Shown here: positions 989 to 64,000 of the stretch, piece by piece | Numbering within the stretch: the stretch's first letter is position 1 | Layout of the letters: every line of letters starts with the position of its first letter | From: Rhodopirellula europaea 6C | GTDB lineage: Bacteria; Planctomycetota; Planctomycetia; Pirellulales; Pirellulaceae | NCBI RefSeq assembly: GCF_000338295.1 | Contig: NZ_ANMO01000067.1 | Span: 1 to 64,000, forward strand | Reading direction: 5' to 3' | DNA: 64,000 nt | Position numbers and translations under genes: made by a program | Notes under the pieces: model-generated | Databases searched by the model: none | What the model was told of the DNA's origin: nothing | What the model saw: only the letters and a program-made list of their open reading frames with translations

Positions 989-1137
989 GCAAACGGCTTG
1001 TTGTCGACCGGACAAACGCCGGTGCAAACCTTTCCTTTGAACCGGTGAGCATCTATGTTTCAACTGCAGCGGCTAGGACCGTACATCCGAAAACCGGGCT
1101 TCACCACCCGGCCGCCGCTGCTCTCTTTCTTTGGTGA
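985..1137 (+). CDS. Small 50-aa ORF between Toprim gene and integrase
   Basis: A 50-residue ORF begins at the ATGA overlap with the Toprim gene and ends with TGA immediately before an ATG in the integrase frame. It starts MSKRLVVDRTNAG and ends in LFLW. The tail is alanine-rich with no recognisable domain, and there is no clear helix-turn-helix of the excisionase type. The tight spacing on both sides argues for translation, but its function is unknown. It might only serve translational coupling to the integrase. Confidence 0.35.
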   Translation: MSKRLVVDRTNAGANLSFEPVSIYVSTAAARTVHPKTGLHHPAAAALFLW

Positions 1138-1158: not shown

Positions 1159-2505
1159 ATGGCAAGTTTGACGAAAGAATCCGACCGCGGTCGGCAGGGG
1201 CTGCGACTTCGCTTCTACCTGAACCGAAAACGCAAATCGCTTTATCTTGGCAAGATCAGCAAACGGAACGCTGAGACGGTCAAGCGACACATCGAAGAGC
1301 TGGTTCATGCGATCGAGTCCAACACCAAACCCGATGCAGAAACGGTTCGGTGGGCTAATGGACTCGAGGGCCGGATGCGTGAGACCTTGGAAAATTGGAA
1401 GCTGATTCAACCGCTGACCAAGTCAGCCACGAGCGTTGAAAAGACATTGGGGCCTTTCCTGGATCAATACATCGCAGGAAGGACTGATGTGTCCGCAGCG
1501 ACCCGGGAAAAGTACGGGCATACCAAACGTTTTCTGGTTGGCAAGTTTGGAGCCGATCACCAGTTGGATACGATCACCAAAGCTGATGCGAAGGCTTGGC
1601 AGCGCTGGTTGATGGAACAACCGGCTCGTATCGACAAAGACGGAAAGGTCGTCCGAACGATGGCACCGTCCACCGCATCCAAGCACGTCAAACGCGCGAA
1701 GACGATGTTTGCAGAGGCTGTCGATGCCGAACTGATCCCTTCGAACCCCATGGACGCCATCAAAGGCGGTGAAGAGGTCAACCGCAGCCGCGATCACTTT
1801 GTCGACCGGCAATCCGCAAAGCAGGTTCTCGATGCCTGCCCTGGCATTCAGTGGCGTCTGATCTTCGCACTGGCTCGCTACGGTGGACTGCGACGTTGCG
1901 AGATCACGGCTTTGAAATGGTCCGACGTTCAGTGGGACCAAGCTAGGCTTCGCATCGATTCGCCCAAAACAGGACTTCGCTTCGCTCCGATCTTTCCTGA
2001 GCTCCGCCCAATCTTGGAAGAGGCGTTCTACTTGGCCGAAGACGGCGATCTCCGCTGCGTCACGCGGTACAGCCGTTCTTCCAATCTTGGCACCCAGATG
2101 AATCGCATTATCGAGCGAGCAGGTCTGGAGCCGTGGGAGAAGACCTTTCAAAACCTGCGAGCTTCCCGTCGGACGGAGTTGGAAGAACGCTTTGCCAACC
2201 ACGTCGTCAATTCGTGGATGGGACATTCGGCACGCGTGGCCGAGAAGAGCTATCTGCAAGTGACGCCTGCCCACTGGGAAGAAGGGGCGACAACTGAGAC
2301 TGGCCTCAGCTGCGAACGGGACCGCGGTCCCATTGGCGGTCCCATTCCTGCTCGTACTCAGCCATCTACAGCCAACGAGGCACAAAAAAACCTGGGATAT
2401 CTTGGTCAGTACGACGCAAAATGCCCAGGTAATGTTGCCTCAGCTCCCCCGACAGGACTCGAACCTGTGACAAGGCGGTTAACAGCCGCCTGCTCTACCA
2501 ACTGA
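1159..2505 (+). CDS. Site-specific tyrosine recombinase (phage-type integrase)
   Basis: 448 residues. I chose the ATG at 1159 because AGGTGA lies seven bases upstream; an ATG at 1138 would add seven residues. The N-terminal part resembles a SAM-like core-binding domain (about residues 90-200). The C-terminal catalytic domain shows the box I Arg in YGGLRRCEI (about R245), the box II Arg in QNLRASRRTEL (about R334), the GHS histidine (about H356) and the nucleophile in EKSYLQV (about Y365). The usual box II histidine three residues before the Arg is Gln here. The enzyme should integrate and excise the element at tRNA-Asn. The last ~20 residues are encoded by tRNA DNA read antisense and may differ in the excised form. 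Confidence 0.9.
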   Translation: MASLTKESDRGRQGLRLRFYLNRKRKSLYLGKISKRNAETVKRHIEELVHAIESNTKPDAETVRWANGLEGRMRETLENWKLIQPLTKSATSVEKTLGPFLDQYIAGRTDVSAATREKYGHTKRFLVGKFGADHQLDTITKADAKAWQRWLMEQPARIDKDGKVVRTMAPSTASKHVKRAKTMFAEAVDAELIPSNPMDAIKGGEEVNRSRDHFVDRQSAKQVLDACPGIQWRLIFALARYGGLRRCEITALKWSDVQWDQARLRIDSPKTGLRFAPIFPELRPILEEAFYLAEDGDLRCVTRYSRSSNLGTQMNRIIERAGLEPWEKTFQNLRASRRTELEERFANHVVNSWMGHSARVAEKSYLQVTPAHWEEGATTETGLSCERDRGPIGGPIPARTQPSTANEAQKNLGYLGQYDAKCPGNVASAPPTGLEPVTRRLTAACSTN

Positions 2506-2516
2506 GCTACAGGGGA
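2444..2516 (-). tRNA. tRNA-Asn (anticodon GTT)
   Basis: Read on the minus strand, the sequence folds as a 73-nt cloverleaf. The 7-bp acceptor stem pairs TCCCCTG with CGGGGGA, with one G-T pair. The D-arm contains AGCTCAGTTGGTAGAGC, the anticodon loop is CTGTTAA with anticodon GTT, and the T-arm contains GGTTCGAGTCC. The discriminator base is G and the CCA end is not encoded. The 3' end is the likely attachment site of the integrative element to its left. Confidence 0.95.
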
Positions 2517-4893: not shown

Positions 4894-4917
4894 CCGAATT
4901 CTGGCGAATTCGGCTAC
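4894..4917 (-). repeat. GTAG hairpin (REP-like), CCGAATTC stem
   Basis: On the minus strand GTAG is followed by CCGAATTC, loop GCCA, and GAATTCGG: a perfect 8-bp stem with a four-base loop. It has the same stem family as the copies near 5122, 29150, 49836 and 49961. Confidence 0.75.
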
Positions 4918-4988: not shown

Positions 4989-5011
4989 AACATTTGAGAC
5001 AAATGTTCTAC
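4989..5011 (-). repeat. GTAG hairpin (REP-like), AACATTTG stem
   Basis: On the minus strand GTAG is followed by AACATTTG, loop TCT, and CAAATGTT: a perfect 8-bp stem with a pyrimidine triloop. The flank CTACTCTGA also follows the copy at 55654-55678. Confidence 0.75.
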
Positions 5012-5121
5012 TCTGATCGCGCGGTAAAGACGCCTTGCTAACGCGGCGGGTTATGACGAACGACGATAGCGGGTCATTGAATTGATTAGCCGATGGCCGT
5101 TAGGCCCGGTTCTTGTGCGGT

Positions 5122-6590: not shown

Positions 6591-6809
6591 TAGTCGCGGG
6601 GCTCTGCGTGCGGCCTTGCTCACGCGGCGGGTTACGAAGGCATAGCGGGGATCTGAAATCTGGCGATTCCAGCTACGGGCGACGGAGGATCACGGCACCA
6701 ATCAGCCGGCGGCCGTTAGGCCCGGTTCTGTGATGGTGGAACCGAGGCGAACGCCTAAACGGCTTAATAGCGCGGCGGGTTGCGACGAGATGGCGAACGG
6801 CTGGCAGGT
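6591..6809. other. Repeat-filled convergent intergenic region (radC / PII)
   Basis: No gene. It contains a GTAG hairpin (6653-6676), the module AGCCGGCGGCCGTTAGGCCC at about 6702-6721, and the GCGGCGGGTT module twice (about 6624 and 6772). The same modules recur between other genes in this window. Confidence 0.6.
6653..6676 (-). repeat. GTAG hairpin (REP-like), CTGGAATC stem
   Basis: On the minus strand GTAG is followed by CTGGAATC, loop GCCA, and GATTTCAG: an 8-bp stem with one G-T pair. It keeps the GCCA loop of the CCGAATTC family with a different stem, suggesting compensatory divergence. Confidence 0.65.
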
Positions 6810-27552: not shown

Positions 27553-29130
27553 TTGAAATCATCCGAATCTGGACGCCGAGATCCGCCGACGCATTGGTGG
27601 CGAATCCTGACTAACATCGGGCCTGGACTGATCATCGCCGGATCAATCGTGGGCAGCGGCGAATTGATCGCAACGACCAAAACCGGTGCCGAAGCCGGAT
27701 TCACACTGCTTTGGCTGATCCTGCTGGGTTGCGTGGTCAAAGTGTTCACCCAAGTCGAAATGGGGCGTTACACACTGACCAGCGGCAAGACATCGCTGCA
27801 AGGTTTTAACGAACTGCCCGGCCCGAGACTCGGTCGCCACGGAAACTGGTTGGTCTGGGCTTGGGCGGTCATGTGGCTGGCCAGCATCGGACAACAAGGC
27901 GGGATTGTCGGCAGCGTCGGCCAAGCGGTGGCACTCACGATGCCAGCCACCGCACAAGGAGTCTCCGAGAATCGTGTCGCCGACGCGGAACAACTGCTGA
28001 CGTTTGAACGATACGCGGCCCGATCCGAATCCGTCTCTTCCGACGATGGCACCTCACCGGATGAACCCAACGTCCCAACTTCCGAGCGTCTCAAAGAACT
28101 CGATCAACGAGAAGCCGAGGTGGTCGCGTTGCGGATCGCTCACGAACTGGAACATGGCAAGAGCGAGCCACCGGACATCAAACTGTGGGCGACCATCATT
28201 ACCATTGCAACGAGCATCCTGTTGTTCGTCGGCCGGTATGGGTTGATCCAAACGTTCAGCACCGTGCTGGTCGGGTCGTTCACGTTGCTCACGCTGATCA
28301 ACTTGTTCTTGTTGCAGGGCGAGGTCGATTACCGAGTCACAACGGAAGAATTTTTCTCTGGATTGAAAGGTGCCCTGCCCTCCTCGGCCAACGGCAGCAC
28401 AGCGCTCGCGACCGCACTGGCAACGTTTGGCATCATCGGCGTGGGAGCCGGTGAGTTGGTGGCTTACCCGTATTGGTGCCTCGAAAAAGGCTATGCCAAG
28501 TTCACCGGCAAAGACGATGGCACGCCGCAGTGGCGTGAGCGGGCAGCCGGATGGATGCGGGTGATGCAGGTCGACGCCTGGGGATCGATGCTGGTCTACA
28601 CCTTTGCCACCGTCGCGTTCTACTTGCTCGGTGCCGCGGTGCTGCATCGTGTCGGACTGAACCCGGAGAAATCCGATTTGGTGCGGACGCTGGCCGTGAT
28701 GTATGTGCCGGTGTTTTCGAACTGGGCCGCGGGGCTGTTTCTGTTTGGCGCGATCGCGGTGTTGTACAGCACCTTCTTTGTTGCTTGTGCCGGGCATGCA
28801 CGCGTGTTCTCCGATGCGCTGCGGGTGATCGGATGGATCGATGACAGCCAAGCGACGCGAGACAAATGGGTGCGTGGTCTTGGTGCTTTTTTCCCGATCA
28901 TGAGCTTGTTCTTTTACCTTGCGTTTCCTTCGCCGGCGAAATTGGTTTTGATCAGCGGCGTTACACAAGGTGTCGTGTTGCCGATGATCGCCGGAGCCGC
29001 GATTTGGTTTCGCTACAAACGCTCCGTCGATGGACTGCGTCCCGGCAAGCTTTGGGACGCCATGCTGTGGTTATCCGGCATCGCGATGTTGATCACCGGT
29101 GTGTGGACCATCATCGCCACCGTGACATGA
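27553..29130 (+). CDS. Nramp-related membrane transporter lacking canonical metal-binding motifs
   Basis: 525 residues from the TTG at 27553. The open frame extends to 27376, but that part overlaps the divergent RDD gene, and no ATG is suitable. Eleven or more membrane segments are visible. TM1 reads GPGLIIAGSIVGSGELIATT, where true Nramp has DPGN. The TM6 equivalent reads GVGAGELVAYPYWCLEKG, where Nramp has MPH(N). Both metal-binding helices are thus altered, so Mn/Fe transport should not be assumed. A charged insertion of ~85 residues (about 115-200; ENRVADAEQLLTFERY...) separates two TMs and may be a soluble loop domain. Confidence 0.8.
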   Translation: MKSSESGRRDPPTHWWRILTNIGPGLIIAGSIVGSGELIATTKTGAEAGFTLLWLILLGCVVKVFTQVEMGRYTLTSGKTSLQGFNELPGPRLGRHGNWLVWAWAVMWLASIGQQGGIVGSVGQAVALTMPATAQGVSENRVADAEQLLTFERYAARSESVSSDDGTSPDEPNVPTSERLKELDQREAEVVALRIAHELEHGKSEPPDIKLWATIITIATSILLFVGRYGLIQTFSTVLVGSFTLLTLINLFLLQGEVDYRVTTEEFFSGLKGALPSSANGSTALATALATFGIIGVGAGELVAYPYWCLEKGYAKFTGKDDGTPQWRERAAGWMRVMQVDAWGSMLVYTFATVAFYLLGAAVLHRVGLNPEKSDLVRTLAVMYVPVFSNWAAGLFLFGAIAVLYSTFFVACAGHARVFSDALRVIGWIDDSQATRDKWVRGLGAFFPIMSLFFYLAFPSPAKLVLISGVTQGVVLPMIAGAAIWFRYKRSVDGLRPGKLWDAMLWLSGIAMLITGVWTIIATVT

Positions 29131-29149
29131 GTGCAACGTCAATCTGAAC

Positions 29150-29174
29150 GTAGCCGGATTCGCCAAGAATTCGG
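29150..29174 (+). repeat. GTAG hairpin (REP-like), CCGGATTC stem
   Basis: GTAG is followed by CCGGATTC, loop GCCAA, and GAATTCGG. It is identical to the copy at 49836-49860. Confidence 0.8.
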
Positions 29175-29206
29175 AGCGAGATGGATGCCATTGCCAAGTT
29201 TGAACT

Positions 29207-29229
29207 CACGGCGGAGACCGCCGTGCTAC
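29207..29229 (-). repeat. GTAG hairpin (REP-like), CACGGCGG stem
   Basis: On the minus strand GTAG is followed by CACGGCGG, loop TCT, and CCGCCGTG: a perfect 8-bp stem with a pyrimidine triloop. It is identical to the copy at 49904-49926. Confidence 0.8.
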
Positions 29230-29242
29230 AGGTTGCGAACCC

Positions 29243-29368
29243 GTAGGCCATGTCTCACATGGCATCCCAGCCGATGCTTTGGAACAAAGCGAGGCGTCAA
29301 TCAAACCAACCCTCGCGAGTTCGATCAGGTAACGGCCCGCCAGCATCGCCAGGTAGGACCTGGCCTAC
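29243..29368. repeat. Composite element bounded by opposed GTAG hairpins (126 bp)
   Basis: The left end is GTAG-GCCATGT-CTC-ACATGGC (29243-29263). It is followed by a conserved tail containing GCTTTGGAACAAAGC, itself a hairpin, and ending GAGGCG. A spacer follows, and the right end, read on the minus strand, is GTAG-GCCAGGT-CCT-ACCTGGC (29348-29368). The element at 43486-43610 has the same layout and nearly the same length, with an unrelated spacer. Confidence 0.75.
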
Positions 29369-29374
29369 GGTGAG

Positions 29375-30718
29375 TTAACCCAACAACTCGGCGGCTTGGT
29401 CGCACAAAGAAGCGGCCTCGTCGGCCGTGGGTGCTTCGGCGATCATCCGGACGATCGGTTCGGTGTTGCTGCCACGAACCAACAACCAACGATCCGACCA
29501 TTGCAACCGCATCCCGTCACCACGTGTCGCTTCCGCGTCGGTGAACTTGGCTTCCAATTTGTCAAAGACTTCCGGCAATCGTTCGGCTGAAACACCCGCT
29601 TTGCTTTTTTGGATGCTGAGCTGCGGCAATTCATCGGCCAACTCGCTAAGAGGTTTCCCGGTTCGTGCCAAGAGTGCCAACGTTTGGGCCATCCCAACAA
29701 AGCTGTCGCGAACATAGCCCACCGTCGGATCGATTGGTCCGCCGTTGCCTTCACCACCATAGGACGCCTTCTTGTCAATCATCAAATCGCACACGTTGGC
29801 TTCGCCCACCGCACTGCGAAATGTTTCAACGCCGTGCTGCTTCGCGATCAAAGTGCTCATCGAACTGGTCGCTCCGTTGATCACGATCGGGCCCGATGTT
29901 CGACCGGTTTCCATCGCCTGCCTGACGCACAAAGCCAACGTGCATTCTTCGCCAATGTAGCGTCCCGTTTCGTCGATTAACGCCAACCGATCGGCATCAG
30001 GGTCTTGGCAGAAACCAACGACGCACTCGCGACCGGTCACGTCCGCAGAAATGCCCTGCAGGTTCTCGGCAGTGGGCTCGGGCGTGTGAGCGAATTTCCC
30101 CGTCGGTTCGTGCCCCATCGCCTCGACGGTGCATCCCAACGCTTTCAGCAACCGCACGCCGAGCAATCCACCTGCGCCGTGGTTGCTGTCGATCAGCACT
30201 CGAAATTGTTTGGCTTTGATCGCATCGACGTCGACTGTTGCCAAGACTTTTTCGAGATGGGCCGCGTGAGGGTCGTCGACGGAGCTGACCTCACCAATTT
30301 TGTCGTACGTCGCCCATTGGTTCGTTCCGGCAAAGTATGCGTCGCGAATTTTGGCTCCCGATTCGGCGTCGAGGACGCGGCCATCGCCGCCGAACAATTT
30401 GATGCCGTTGTATTCCGGTGGATTGTGGCTGGCCGAGATCGCAATGGCACCGACGGCACCCAACTCGCGAACCAGCACACCAATGGTGGGAGTGGCGGCA
30501 ACGTCTGCGTCGATCACATCGCGTCCCGAAGCGGACAATGCAGAAACGATGGCACTGCGAAGCATCGGTCCCGTGGTGCGTCCGTCGCGTCCGATCACAA
30601 TTTTGCCTTCAGGCATTGCTGCTGAAAACGCGGCTGCGAAACGCACGGCGACTTCGGGTGTCAGGGTTTCACCCAAGATGCCGCGAAGACCGCTGACGCT
30701 GATAATCAATTCACTCAT
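29375..30718 (-). CDS. Phosphoglucomutase/phosphomannomutase (GlmM/ManB superfamily)
   Basis: 447 residues from the ATG at 30718 (MSELIISVSGLRGILGETLT). The open frame runs on another ~940 nt, but that part is antisense to fhcA. The phosphoserine loop is ISASHNPPEYNG (Ser97), the Mg2+ loop is DPDADRLALID, the sugar-binding loop is GGEGNGGPIDP, and the phosphate-binding RGSNTEPIVRM is near the C terminus. This is a complete alpha-D-phosphohexomutase, converting hexose-6- to hexose-1-phosphates. Which sugar it prefers (glucosamine, mannose or glucose) cannot be decided by reading. It diverges from the fhc operon. Confidence 0.9.
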   Translation of the reverse strand: MSELIISVSGLRGILGETLTPEVAVRFAAAFSAAMPEGKIVIGRDGRTTGPMLRSAIVSALSASGRDVIDADVAATPTIGVLVRELGAVGAIAISASHNPPEYNGIKLFGGDGRVLDAESGAKIRDAYFAGTNQWATYDKIGEVSSVDDPHAAHLEKVLATVDVDAIKAKQFRVLIDSNHGAGGLLGVRLLKALGCTVEAMGHEPTGKFAHTPEPTAENLQGISADVTGRECVVGFCQDPDADRLALIDETGRYIGEECTLALCVRQAMETGRTSGPIVINGATSSMSTLIAKQHGVETFRSAVGEANVCDLMIDKKASYGGEGNGGPIDPTVGYVRDSFVGMAQTLALLARTGKPLSELADELPQLSIQKSKAGVSAERLPEVFDKLEAKFTDAEATRGDGMRLQWSDRWLLVRGSNTEPIVRMIAEAPTADEAASLCDQAAELLG

Positions 30719-43445: not shown

Positions 43446-43619
43446 ACAAACAAACTACTTTGCAATTTCCCTTCGCATTTTATTCGTAGTCCAGGTTCCA
43501 CCTGGAATCCCAACCGATGCTTTGGAACAAAGCGAGGCGTCAACAGCACGATCCATCACAAGCTTCCGACGGACCAGCGAATCACGGTCGCTAGGTAGAA
43601 CCTAGCCTACGGTGTCCGG
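43446..43619. other. Convergent intergenic region holding a composite GTAG repeat
   Basis: The gap between the kinase and the GT39-like gene is almost filled by the composite element at 43486-43610. No other feature is seen. Confidence 0.65.
43486..43610. repeat. Composite element bounded by opposed GTAG hairpins (125 bp)
   Basis: The left end is GTAG-TCCAGGT-TCC-ACCTGGA (43486-43506). The conserved tail with GCTTTGGAACAAAGC is at 43519-43533, ending GAGGCG. The right end, read on the minus strand, is GTAG-GCTAGGT-TCT-ACCTAGC (43590-43610). The layout and length match the element at 29243-29368, while the spacer between GAGGCG and the right hairpin is unrelated. Confidence 0.75.
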
Positions 43620-49835: not shown

Positions 49836-49860
49836 GTAGCCGGATTCGCCAAGAATTCGG
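49836..49860 (+). repeat. GTAG hairpin (REP-like), CCGGATTC stem
   Basis: The sequence is identical to 29150-29174. Confidence 0.8.
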
Positions 49861-49903: not shown

Positions 49904-49926
49904 CACGGCGGAGACCGCCGTGCTAC
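49904..49926 (-). repeat. GTAG hairpin (REP-like), CACGGCGG stem
   Basis: The stem, triloop and GTAG are identical to 29207-29229, although the sequence before it differs. Confidence 0.8.
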
Positions 49927-49960: not shown

Positions 49961-49985
49961 CCGAATTCTTGGCGAATTCGGCTAC
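49961..49985 (-). repeat. GTAG hairpin (REP-like), CCGAATTC stem
   Basis: On the minus strand GTAG is followed by CCGAATTC, loop GCCAA, and GAATTCGG: a perfect 8-bp stem. It is opposed to the copy at 49836. Confidence 0.8.
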
Positions 49986-49993
49986 GGAGACAT

Positions 49994-50057
49994 GTAGGCC
50001 ATGTCTCACATGGCATCCGAACCGATGCTTTGGAACAAAGCGAGGCGAGCAAGCAAC
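49994..50057 (+). repeat. Left half of the composite GTAG element (hairpin plus tail)
   Basis: GTAG-GCCATGT-CTC-ACATGGC (49994-50014) is followed by the tail with GCTTTGGAACAAAGC (50037-50051) ending GAGGCG. The opposed right-end hairpin present at 29348 and 43590 is absent here; other modules follow instead. Confidence 0.75.
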
Positions 50058-50121
50058 GCACGCCAATGCGTCGCTCATTTCATAACCCGCCGCGTTAGCA
50101 AGGCCACCAAAACCCGACCCC

Positions 50122-60971: not shown

Positions 60972-61170
60972 CCGATTGTTGATTTAGTCGCATACCGAAT
61001 GGCAACAATTAGCCGATGGGCGTTAGCCCCGGTTGGCGTCTGACCAACCGCCGCTAACGCGGTGCGGCTCATTCAATCAACGGCCCGCTAGGGCCGCCCT
61101 TCCCCGAATCGTTTTATCGAACTTCCAAGCCACCACCTGTCTCGCCATCTTTCATGCGAGGGAACCCATC
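60972..61170. other. Intergenic repeats between PSD1 and DUF1501
   Basis: It contains the module TTAGCCGATGGGCGTTAGCC (61011-61030), a diverged GCTAACGCGG module (about 61052), and GGCCCGCTAGGGCC (about 61083-61096), a hairpin with GCTA loop. The gene pair is likely still cotranscribed. Confidence 0.6.
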
Positions 61171-63025: not shown

Positions 63026-64000
63026 TCACGCGCTTTGATCGAACAGCAATCCGTTGAGTGAACGACCTTGCCGGGAGGAAACACCAAACATCGATTGCAA
63101 ATTGGCCAAAGCGTCTTTCGTCACGTTGTAGGCATCCAGCGCGTCCACGTTTTCGCTGTCGTACTTTCCACCCGATGCCAGTTGAAACAGATCCGCCAGC
63201 GCGGTCTGGGTTGCTTCCAGCGTTGTACCAGTCAACGCCTCCATTTTAGAACTGCGATAGGACTCCGATGCGGACCCATTGGCGTTGATCGTGAAGTTGT
63301 CAAAACTGCCACGAAAACCTTCGGCGAGTTGGAAACCGATCCGCACGCCATCCTGCTCGAATTCGTATCGTCCGTCGACCTTGGTCACTTCTTGACCGTT
63401 CATTATGAACTGTTCGCGAGTCGCTGATGATCGGTAGGTACTGGGAGCACCAGTGCGACGTTGCACAGTGACCTCGGAATCGATTTCAAATGTGTCCAGG
63501 GCTCCTACAAACCCGTCAACAAACTCCAAGTCGATCGAACTCTCGCCGAGGGACACCTCGAACGTGTTGGTGGATGAAGTGTAGGTTTGGCCGTTGATGG
63601 TTGCTTGGCCGTCTTGCCCATAAGCGTTGCCGTTTCCATCTCCACCCGTGATAGAAAACTCATCTTCATCAGATCGCAAAGTGATGGGGTCAATCGCTCC
63701 CAGAAATCCAGTTTCGATATCAAATGTCATCACAGCGGAATCGATGGTGACACCAAATTCATCGCCATCCGCGACGAACGATTGACCATTGATAGTGGCC
63801 TCTGCATCGACTCCGTAAGCCGTACCGGTTTCATCACCTCCGGAAAGGTCAAAGGTACCGTCTGATGTGGTCACTTCAATCGAGTCGAACGTGCCTGTGA
63901 ACCCGGACTGCACGTCAAAAGAATACGATCCGAGTGAATCGGCATAGTCCACATGGTTCCCATCGGCCACGACGGATTCACCATTGATGGTCAATTGGGC
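63026..64000 (-). CDS. Partial protein with ~65-aa repeats, flagellar hook-associated/flagellin IN-motif-like
   Basis: The frame runs off the right edge; only the C-terminal ~324 residues are seen. Two similar ~65-residue units begin with TINGESVVADG and TINGQSFVADG, a third incomplete one with TINGQTYTSST, and each has FDVQSGF-, FDIETGF- or FVDGF-type cores. The units have a short AYGVDAEA- or AYGQDGQA-like end. TINGQ openings recall the flagellin IN motif of FliD and flagellins. The end (TQTALADLFQLASGGKYDSE, then VTKDALANLQSMFGVSSRQG) is helical. A flagellar filament or cap protein is possible, but the missing N terminus prevents certainty. Confidence 0.6.
   Translation of the reverse strand, partial: AQLTINGESVVADGNHVDYADSLGSYSFDVQSGFTGTFDSIEVTTSDGTFDLSGGDETGTAYGVDAEATINGQSFVADGDEFGVTIDSAVMTFDIETGFLGAIDPITLRSDEDEFSITGGDGNGNAYGQDGQATINGQTYTSSTNTFEVSLGESSIDLEFVDGFVGALDTFEIDSEVTVQRRTGAPSTYRSSATREQFIMNGQEVTKVDGRYEFEQDGVRIGFQLAEGFRGSFDNFTINANGSASESYRSSKMEALTGTTLEATQTALADLFQLASGGKYDSENVDALDAYNVTKDALANLQSMFGVSSRQGRSLNGLLFDQSA

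Follow-up and report, generated by a model that had tools for sequence, protein, structure and literature searches.

The stretch of 64,000 nucleotides analysed here (the window) lies on contig C67 of the draft genome of Rhodopirellula europaea 6C, which has 7,191,307 bases in 273 contigs. Four hairpins occupy positions 29150-29368, each with a GTAG foot directly abutting its stem and at most one G-T pair in the stem. Other hairpins of this build are found in the window. All are listed here, with the spacer of one pair, under the REP families to which we assign them.

4894..4917, minus strand: REP of family A, CCGAATTC-GCCA-GAATTCGG.
4989..5011, minus strand: REP with AACATTTG-TCT-CAAATGTT; the identical stem flanks a RAYT gene of the same genome, on contig C257.
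5122..5146, minus strand: REP of family A, CCGGATTC-GCCAA-GAATTCGG.
6653..6676, minus strand: A-like REP, CTGGAATC-GCCA-GATTTCAG; by eye its nearest stems are TGGAATTC and TGGACTTC, with GCCA, at a RAYT gene of congener G004.
29150..29174, plus strand: REP of family A, GTAG plus CCGGATTC-GCCAA-GAATTCGG, with one G-T pair.
29207..29229, minus strand: REP of family B, GTAG plus CACGGCGG-TCT-CCGCCGTG.
29243..29263, plus strand: REP of family C, GTAG plus GCCATGT-CTC-ACATGGC, left end of a REPIN-like inverted pair.
29264..29347, no strand: spacer of this family-C pair, with the shared core CCGATGCTTTGGAACAAAGCGAGGCG from 29271.
29348..29368, minus strand: REP of family C, GTAG plus GCCAGGT-CCT-ACCTGGC, right end of the pair begun at 29243.
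43486..43506, plus strand: REP of family C, TCCAGGT-TCC-ACCTGGA; the orthologous site in congeners G003 and G002 is without it.
43590..43610, minus strand: REP of family C, GCTAGGT-TCT-ACCTAGC.
49836..49860, plus strand: REP of family A, CCGGATTC-GCCAA.
49904..49926, minus strand: REP of family B.
49961..49985, minus strand: REP of family A, CCGAATTC-GCCAA.
49994..50014, plus strand: REP of family C, GCCATGT-CTC.

By a rule of GTAG, a stem of at least 7, a loop of 3-5 and at most one G-T pair, the window has 15 hairpins, while 200 dinucleotide shuffles averaged 0.185 and never exceeded 3. Fourteen of the 15 are extragenic with respect to ORFs of at least 250 aa. The hairpin at 63438 lies within an ORF and its loop falls in neither of the two loop classes, pyrimidine triloops and GCCA/GCCAA, so we count it as a chance occurrence. 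The initial annotation had named these two classes correctly, and its figure of at least fourteen hairpins agrees with 14 family members plus the chance one; the repeated GTAG hairpins of the window are thus confirmed.

In all 14 family hairpins, the GTAG is unpaired at one hairpin end. The window stems of 7-8 bp and loops of 3-5 fall within the REP definition of a 6-13 bp stem (PMC3733652) with a short loop. GTAG is the top 4-base foot in the window, with 20 rows against 8 for the next foot, some of the 20 being two readings of one hairpin. Elsewhere in the genome, 20 other stretches with contigs taken by number (233,476 bases) hold seven GTAG hairpins with loops of up to 7. In a fixed-stem count of these stretches, GTAG occurs 5 times against 0.86 expected from its own frequency; it is above expectation there and another foot is commoner. 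The window is a dense spot for GTAG hairpins relative to the genome.

A rival reading is that these are intergenic terminators or mRNA-stabilising stems whose repetition comes from a shared RNA function. The clusters at 29.1-29.4 and 43.5-43.6 kb do lie between convergent ORFs, and some stems hold one G-T pair. However, those at 4.9-5.1 and 49.8-50.0 kb are not so placed, the GTAG foot is on one side only, and identical hairpins stand to either side of RAYT genes. The predicted intrinsic terminators (stem plus T run) include none of the four at 29150-29368; the sole terminator-like site in 28900-29600, at 29413-29427, is inside the neighbouring ORF, and one such site against 0.8 expected is no more than chance. 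We regard this reading as very improbable, while a secondary RNA role of the hairpins may exist. A known RNA family was dropped, as Rfam at gathering thresholds found in the window only a tRNA and an int-alpA RNA, both away from the hairpins. These two RNAs (int-alpA at 1066-1136, plus strand, 47.8 bits; tRNA at 2444-2516, minus strand, 67.7 bits) perhaps mark the edge of an integrated element.

The hairpins fall into several families, which strict patterns count in the whole genome. Exact matches to GTAG-GCCANGT-NNN-ACNTGGC (family C) number 87, those to the GCCAA form of family A (the CCGGATTC family) 20, and those to the family-B pattern 7 (five CACGGCGG and two CTCGGCGG), and each reversed-pattern control gave 0. 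REP copies are usually over 100 per genome (PMC2817692), a level reached here only by summing the three strict patterns, 87 + 20 + 7. The copies are thus not the mere handful that the initial annotation had named as refuting its REP reading. The uniform family that it described is borne out in the shared GTAG build, but not as a single family, since there are several, each with its own RAYT clade.

Copies of family C lie less than 100 bases from the contig start in C42, C98, C110, C200, C235 and C262. REPs therefore seem to break the assembly, so that copies are undercounted and RAYT genes may be missed.

Neighbouring REPs are often paired. Among 47 pairs at most 250 bp apart, taken from the window and 40 stretches of the genome of which half were chosen for REPs or Y1 genes, 26 run plus then minus with the feet outside, 14 minus then plus, and 7 alike. 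The spacing is 112-120 bp for family C, 131 bp for AACATTTG, and for family A 59 bp in one pair and 61 at congener RAYTs. Two inverted REPs at a set distance, by which REPINs are recognised, are present with family-specific spacing. The family-C pair of 29243-29368 has a spacing of 117, compared with 120 at the RAYT gene on contig C11.

Family-C pairs also have their spacer core in common. With A or C allowed at one base, CCGATGCTTTGGAACAAAGCGAGGCG recurs at 43514 and 50022, and it is found at 9 places in 552,309 bases of the genome that were partly chosen for REPs. The pieces CCGCCGCGTTAGCAAGG and GGCCTAACGGCC are likewise dispersed in the window, at 50087, 5049 and 6630 and at 5106 and 6722, with 3-5 and 3 copies in the same 552,309 bases. 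Pieces like them occur at the 43.5-kb site in congeners, and an imperfect inverted repeat at 61007-61073 is similar to them by eye.

The initial annotation held that stems vary while the pairing is kept, and that absent covariation would speak against a REP family. We examined both on sites picked blind to pairing, by foot and loop only, from loci fetched partly for REPs or RAYTs, of which overlapping ones may repeat a site. Among 78 GTAG-N8-GYCAA-N8 sites, 58 pair at 8 of 8 positions and 9 more at 7 of 8, whereas the same loop behind four other feet gave full pairing in 0/40, 0/4, 0/28 and 0/39. For GTAG-N7-YNY-N7, 66 of 993 sites pair at 7 of 7, compared with 3/2610, 0/231, 5/2616 and 3/2273 for other feet.

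In 30 distinct GTAG-N8-GYCAA-N8 sites, chance sites included, 77.1% of the cells pair against 59.5% when shuffled. Their covariation score is 0.464, higher than the 0.203 of shuffled sites and the 0.158 that slid versions reach at best. A change on both sides is seen in all 8 stem pairs; for this one of five covariation measures, 19 of 500 shuffles do as well. Covariation is present, and varied stems with kept pairing hold on the blind sites.

The enzymes expected to handle REPs are RAYTs (HUH/Y1). The initial annotation saw no transposase in the window, and this is right for the Y1 and RAYT kinds, those searched, which have no match on contig C67. Nine Y1-like genes in the genome came from two family searches combined. 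The C11 RAYT (L022:5252-5806) is flanked on either side by family-C GCCATGT/GCCAGGT hairpins, paired at 120 bp, and REP copies adjoining it form regular 120/23-bp arrays. The C257 RAYT has AACATTTG/AACAGTTG pairs with a spacing of 131 bp. Other GTAG hairpins are near the IS200-like genes of C97, C181 and C192, and no GTAG hairpin of the strict kind is close to the Y1-like genes of C269, C266, C30 and C113.

The C11 RAYT matches the E. coli TnpA-REP of 4er8 at E 1.6e-40 over residues 1-159 of 165. It has the same residues at 4er8 W94, Q95, E100, H101 and R104, which are discussed as GTAG-contact positions (PMC6006769). Both the C11 and the C257 RAYTs have open frames, the HUH, the Tyr (Y-x3-NP) and the GTAG-contact residues. 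Against the curated NF047646 cut-off of 80 bits, C11 scores 172 and C257 63, and the further RAYTs tested, those of CCGGATTC and CACGGCGG among them, score 39.7-72.5. A PDB sequence search with a CCGGATTC-family RAYT had no match at 0.001.

No such partner of families A and B was found in this draft genome. The A-clade RAYT search gave 0 matches in it, and family-B stems are near none of its nine Y1-like genes. In congeners, CCGGATTC stems adjoin RAYTs of G003 and G012, and CACGGCGG stems those of G004 and G002. All four hairpins of 29150-29368 have a stem-matched RAYT, which for C is in the own genome and for A and B only in congeners.

Across the genus, a RAYT-like match at E of at most 0.001 is present in 13 of 13 genomes, the own one included. 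At this threshold the matches listed, weak ones included, number 5 to 24 per genome, and among the matches listed 8 of the 13 genomes have one above the family cut-off. Many of these genes are flanked by matching GTAG hairpins, so that RAYT-like genes are not absent, as the initial annotation had considered in its refutation. The check that it proposed, for HUH/RAYT genes between matching hairpins, came out positive at C11 and C257 and in congeners. Among the matches listed in G008, G005, G012 and others, many frames of about 365-400 aa, repeated within a genome, align weakly (about 26-31 bits) and with the RAYT model's last half only; they may represent a different Y1-like family or unrelated transposases.

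We collected the loci in a 90-row table minus L201 (two genes), L220 and L221 (duplicates of L211 and L209), and L185 and L186 (partial; third tandem copy). The first ORF rule failed on ten rows, of which nine were recovered by a relaxed rule and one, L154, was excluded for an internal stop. The final set has 61 class-2 and 28 subclass-1.2-like loci. A GTAG hairpin is within 700 bp in 30 of the 61 class-2 loci and on both sides in 25, twenty of the class-2 regions having been hand-picked, non-randomly, among RAYT matches. An identical GTAG stem is on both sides in 21 of the 61, while TAGC, a one-base shift of GTAG, is so placed in 12 and each other foot in at most 4.

The other 31 class-2 loci have no GTAG hairpin within 700 bp. 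In some, the flanks are cut by contig ends or the gene belongs to another Y1 group, and this explains a part only. A pattern of W94-Q95, E/D100-H101 and R104, written after several sequences were read, is present in 23 of the 30 loci with a GTAG hairpin and in 9 of the 31 without, related genes being counted repeatedly. Seven of the 30 hairpin-bearing loci lack the motif as written.

The stem follows the RAYT. We placed the 28 RAYTs that have an assigned stem on a tree. Their 11 stem labels can be explained by 10 changes, the fewest possible, compared with a mean of 21.1 for shuffled labels, none of 200 shuffles being as low as 10. Host genome labels need 23 changes on the same tree. Thus, the stem family tracks the RAYT clade and not the host. 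The labels group near-identical stems by judgement and orthologs are repeated, so what the shuffle shows is clustering, without giving coevolution a probability. It is a quick tree with a long-branch warning, built from the last 330 residues (175 for L211), and L198 and L200 with a single hairpin each were left unlabelled.

Thirteen A-clade genes are spread over 7 of the 13 genomes. The stems of this clade include CCGGATTC, TGGAATTC, CGGAAGTC, CGAAACTC and others, with loops of mostly GCCA(A) or GTCAA. Ten of the 13 genes of this GCCA-loop clade, of the Y-x3-NP kind, have a GTAG hairpin in the fetched locus, and L223, L224 and L227 have no strict hairpin in theirs.

Another rival gives the GCCA/GCCAA-loop class to IS200-like subclass-1.2 proteins instead of class-2 RAYTs. 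It draws on a CCGGATTC-ACCA hairpin that follows the own C97 subclass-1.2-like gene at about 0.5 kb downstream; a G002 gene of this kind has the like. However, CCGGATTC-GCCA(A) pairs adjoin the Y-x3-NP RAYTs of G003 and G012, for which we dropped the assignment, and A-clade genes carry GTAG hairpins as above. Besides, the subclass-1.2-like genes mostly have other stems, CTCGGGGY, CCATTGGC and CCCCACGC, and the GTAG-contact motif is in none of 28 (two without the Tyr motif in the frame used). The rival is hardly credible, and we keep the class-2 RAYTs as the partners of the GCCA/GCCAA-loop class.

The subclass-1.2-like genes have hairpins of their own. Subclass 1.2 in the classification of Quentin et al. 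(2018) is described as generally without terminal secondary structures (PMC6006769), and we assigned it by the Y-x3-Q-x2-HH motif alone. From the best 80 loci (L055-L134) of at least 419 confirmed relatives, 64 had long enough flanks. Matching hairpins are on both sides of 37 of these 64 loci, compared with 0 of 51 controls, flanks at a distance of about 2 kb. Genes so flanked occur in Planctomycetota, Verrucomicrobiota, Acidobacteriota and others, and the own C97, C181 and C192 genes belong with them. The hairpins are contrary to the printed description and possibly new, and we found no paper on them in one open-licence library.

Their feet vary, often as NNAG: 50 hairpins of one shape have CCAG 9, GTAG 7, ATAG 5, AAAG 5 and TTAG 5 times. 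In several phyla, GTAG is within 500 bp of the gene at 7 of 80 loci and TGAT at 14, so GTAG alone is unimpressive across phyla. With an identical stem on both sides, the 28 loci of the genus have TAGC 13, GTAG 6 and others at most 3 times. The varying feet and the missing GTAG-contact motif suggest that subclass-1.2 proteins may find their sites through guide pairing in the manner of IS608. Of the CTCGGGGY hairpin, the own genome has 5 exact copies, three of them at subclass-1.2-like genes; it is scarcely dispersed, which argues against REP-like spread of that stem.

We tentatively propose, at somewhat below even odds, a second REPtron-like kind in which hairpin-flanked subclass-1.2 proteins exist beside the classic one, some Rhodopirellula ones having settled on GTAG. 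If true, IS ends and REPs meet in one genome. At G012:C1:6437933-6440373, three tandem copies of a subclass-1.2-like gene with CCATTGGC hairpins lie about 1 kb apart with equal scores, perhaps by recent amplification.

The REPs turn over at orthologous sites. Five of seven matched relatives could be aligned at 29150-29368, L218 and L219 being too diverged. G003 and G002 have an A/A pair and then a C pair, and G006 has the same with the A feet decayed to GTCG. A hairpins stand in for the left C hairpin in G012, and the element in G004 is a different one, GTCAGGC. In the own genome, the hairpin at 29150..29174 is the left end of the A/A inverted pair still present in congeners, and the family-B hairpin at 29207..29229 has replaced the right-hand A hairpin in its place. 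This turnover explains the mixed stems noted in the initial annotation.

The 43.5-kb site, aligned in 4 of 9 genomes with a match, has its C pair in the own genome. In G006 and G012 the left foot is decayed, and G003 and G002 lack the pair and have other repeat material there. The two sites show REP turnover, not which event was an insertion, and the differences among congeners may be loss or recombination instead.

With a probability of roughly 0.9, the hairpins are REP elements, often in REPINs and multi-family mosaics, and each family serves as substrate to a RAYT (HUH/Y1) of its own. The matched RAYTs, the stem-by-RAYT tree, the pairing-blind covariation and the differing orthologous sites all support the REP/RAYT reading of the initial annotation. 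A model is that the RAYT would bind the folded single-stranded REP through its foot, loop and stem, cleave beside it and join it elsewhere, by which REPINs would move or be copied in trans. Single-strand binding, cleavage and strand transfer have been shown for the E. coli, Stenotrophomonas and Marinomonas TnpA-REP duos (PMC8266576), and we infer that the REPINs here are mobilised in trans.

Whether this still goes on is a separate matter. A rather unlikely view is that the REPs are fossils spread by ancestral RAYTs and that no window family is mobile now. The own genome, with no A-clade RAYT and no B stems at its Y1-like genes, fits it, as do the seven copies of family B and the mixed, partly replaced pairs at 29150-29368. 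However, the regular arrays next to the C11 RAYT argue against it, as do the open frames and the HUH, Tyr and GTAG-contact residues of the family-C and AACATTTG RAYTs. We favour REP families served by their own RAYTs, among which A and B are probably leftovers of RAYTs that the lineage has lost, or else have RAYTs that the assembly missed. They may show the fate of REPs after RAYT loss.

Eleven stem labels, with their RAYT relatives, are available in the genus; foot and loop are constant among them and the stem changes by compensating pairs. REP recognition has been dissected on three TnpA-REP/REP duos (PMC8266576). The genus is thus a natural data set for the RAYT residues that read the stem. 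The main text of RepRanger (2025) does not contain the term 'planctomycet'.

Among known systems, the ends of IS200/IS605 elements (IS608, ISDra2) share the Y1 enzyme and the tetranucleotide 5′ of the hairpin (PMC8266576). Unlike them, the REPs here are dispersed, non-coding, often in inverted pairs and fixed on GTAG; the subclass-1.2-like genes are nearer to that kind than the GTAG REPs are. The E. coli REP/BIME is similar in the GTAG foot, the mosaic clusters and the GTAG-contact residues kept in the C11 protein, and differs from the REPs here, which have no bulge, stems of 7-9 bp and several families side by side.

The E. coli TnpA-REP group has been described with long bulged REPs (PMC8266576), and the C11 RAYT is related to it, yet its REPs have 7-bp bulge-free stems. 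Among the matches listed, six are the closest relatives of the E. coli TnpA-REP (over 110 bits); five have hairpins with short bulge-free stems and one, L137 of G008, has no strict GTAG hairpin. Group 3 of Pseudomonas and Stenotrophomonas has short perfect palindromes behind GTAG and several RAYT-family duos per genome (PMC8266576), and by description only, the REPs here are like it in both.

A further likeness is within the genus. For R. baltica, Di Nocera et al. (2013, PMC3733652) described several GTAG REP families together with 'a plethora' of genes for tyrosine transposases that have repeats at their flanks. This species shares with our genome the GTAG foot, the stem-loop build, the several families and the many flanked transposases. 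The REP/RAYT kind is therefore known from the genus and has been in print since 2013, and the GTAG REPs themselves are unsurprising. The likeness to the R. baltica families is by description, and beyond that report are the stem-by-RAYT tree, the RAYT-less families and the comparison of orthologous sites.
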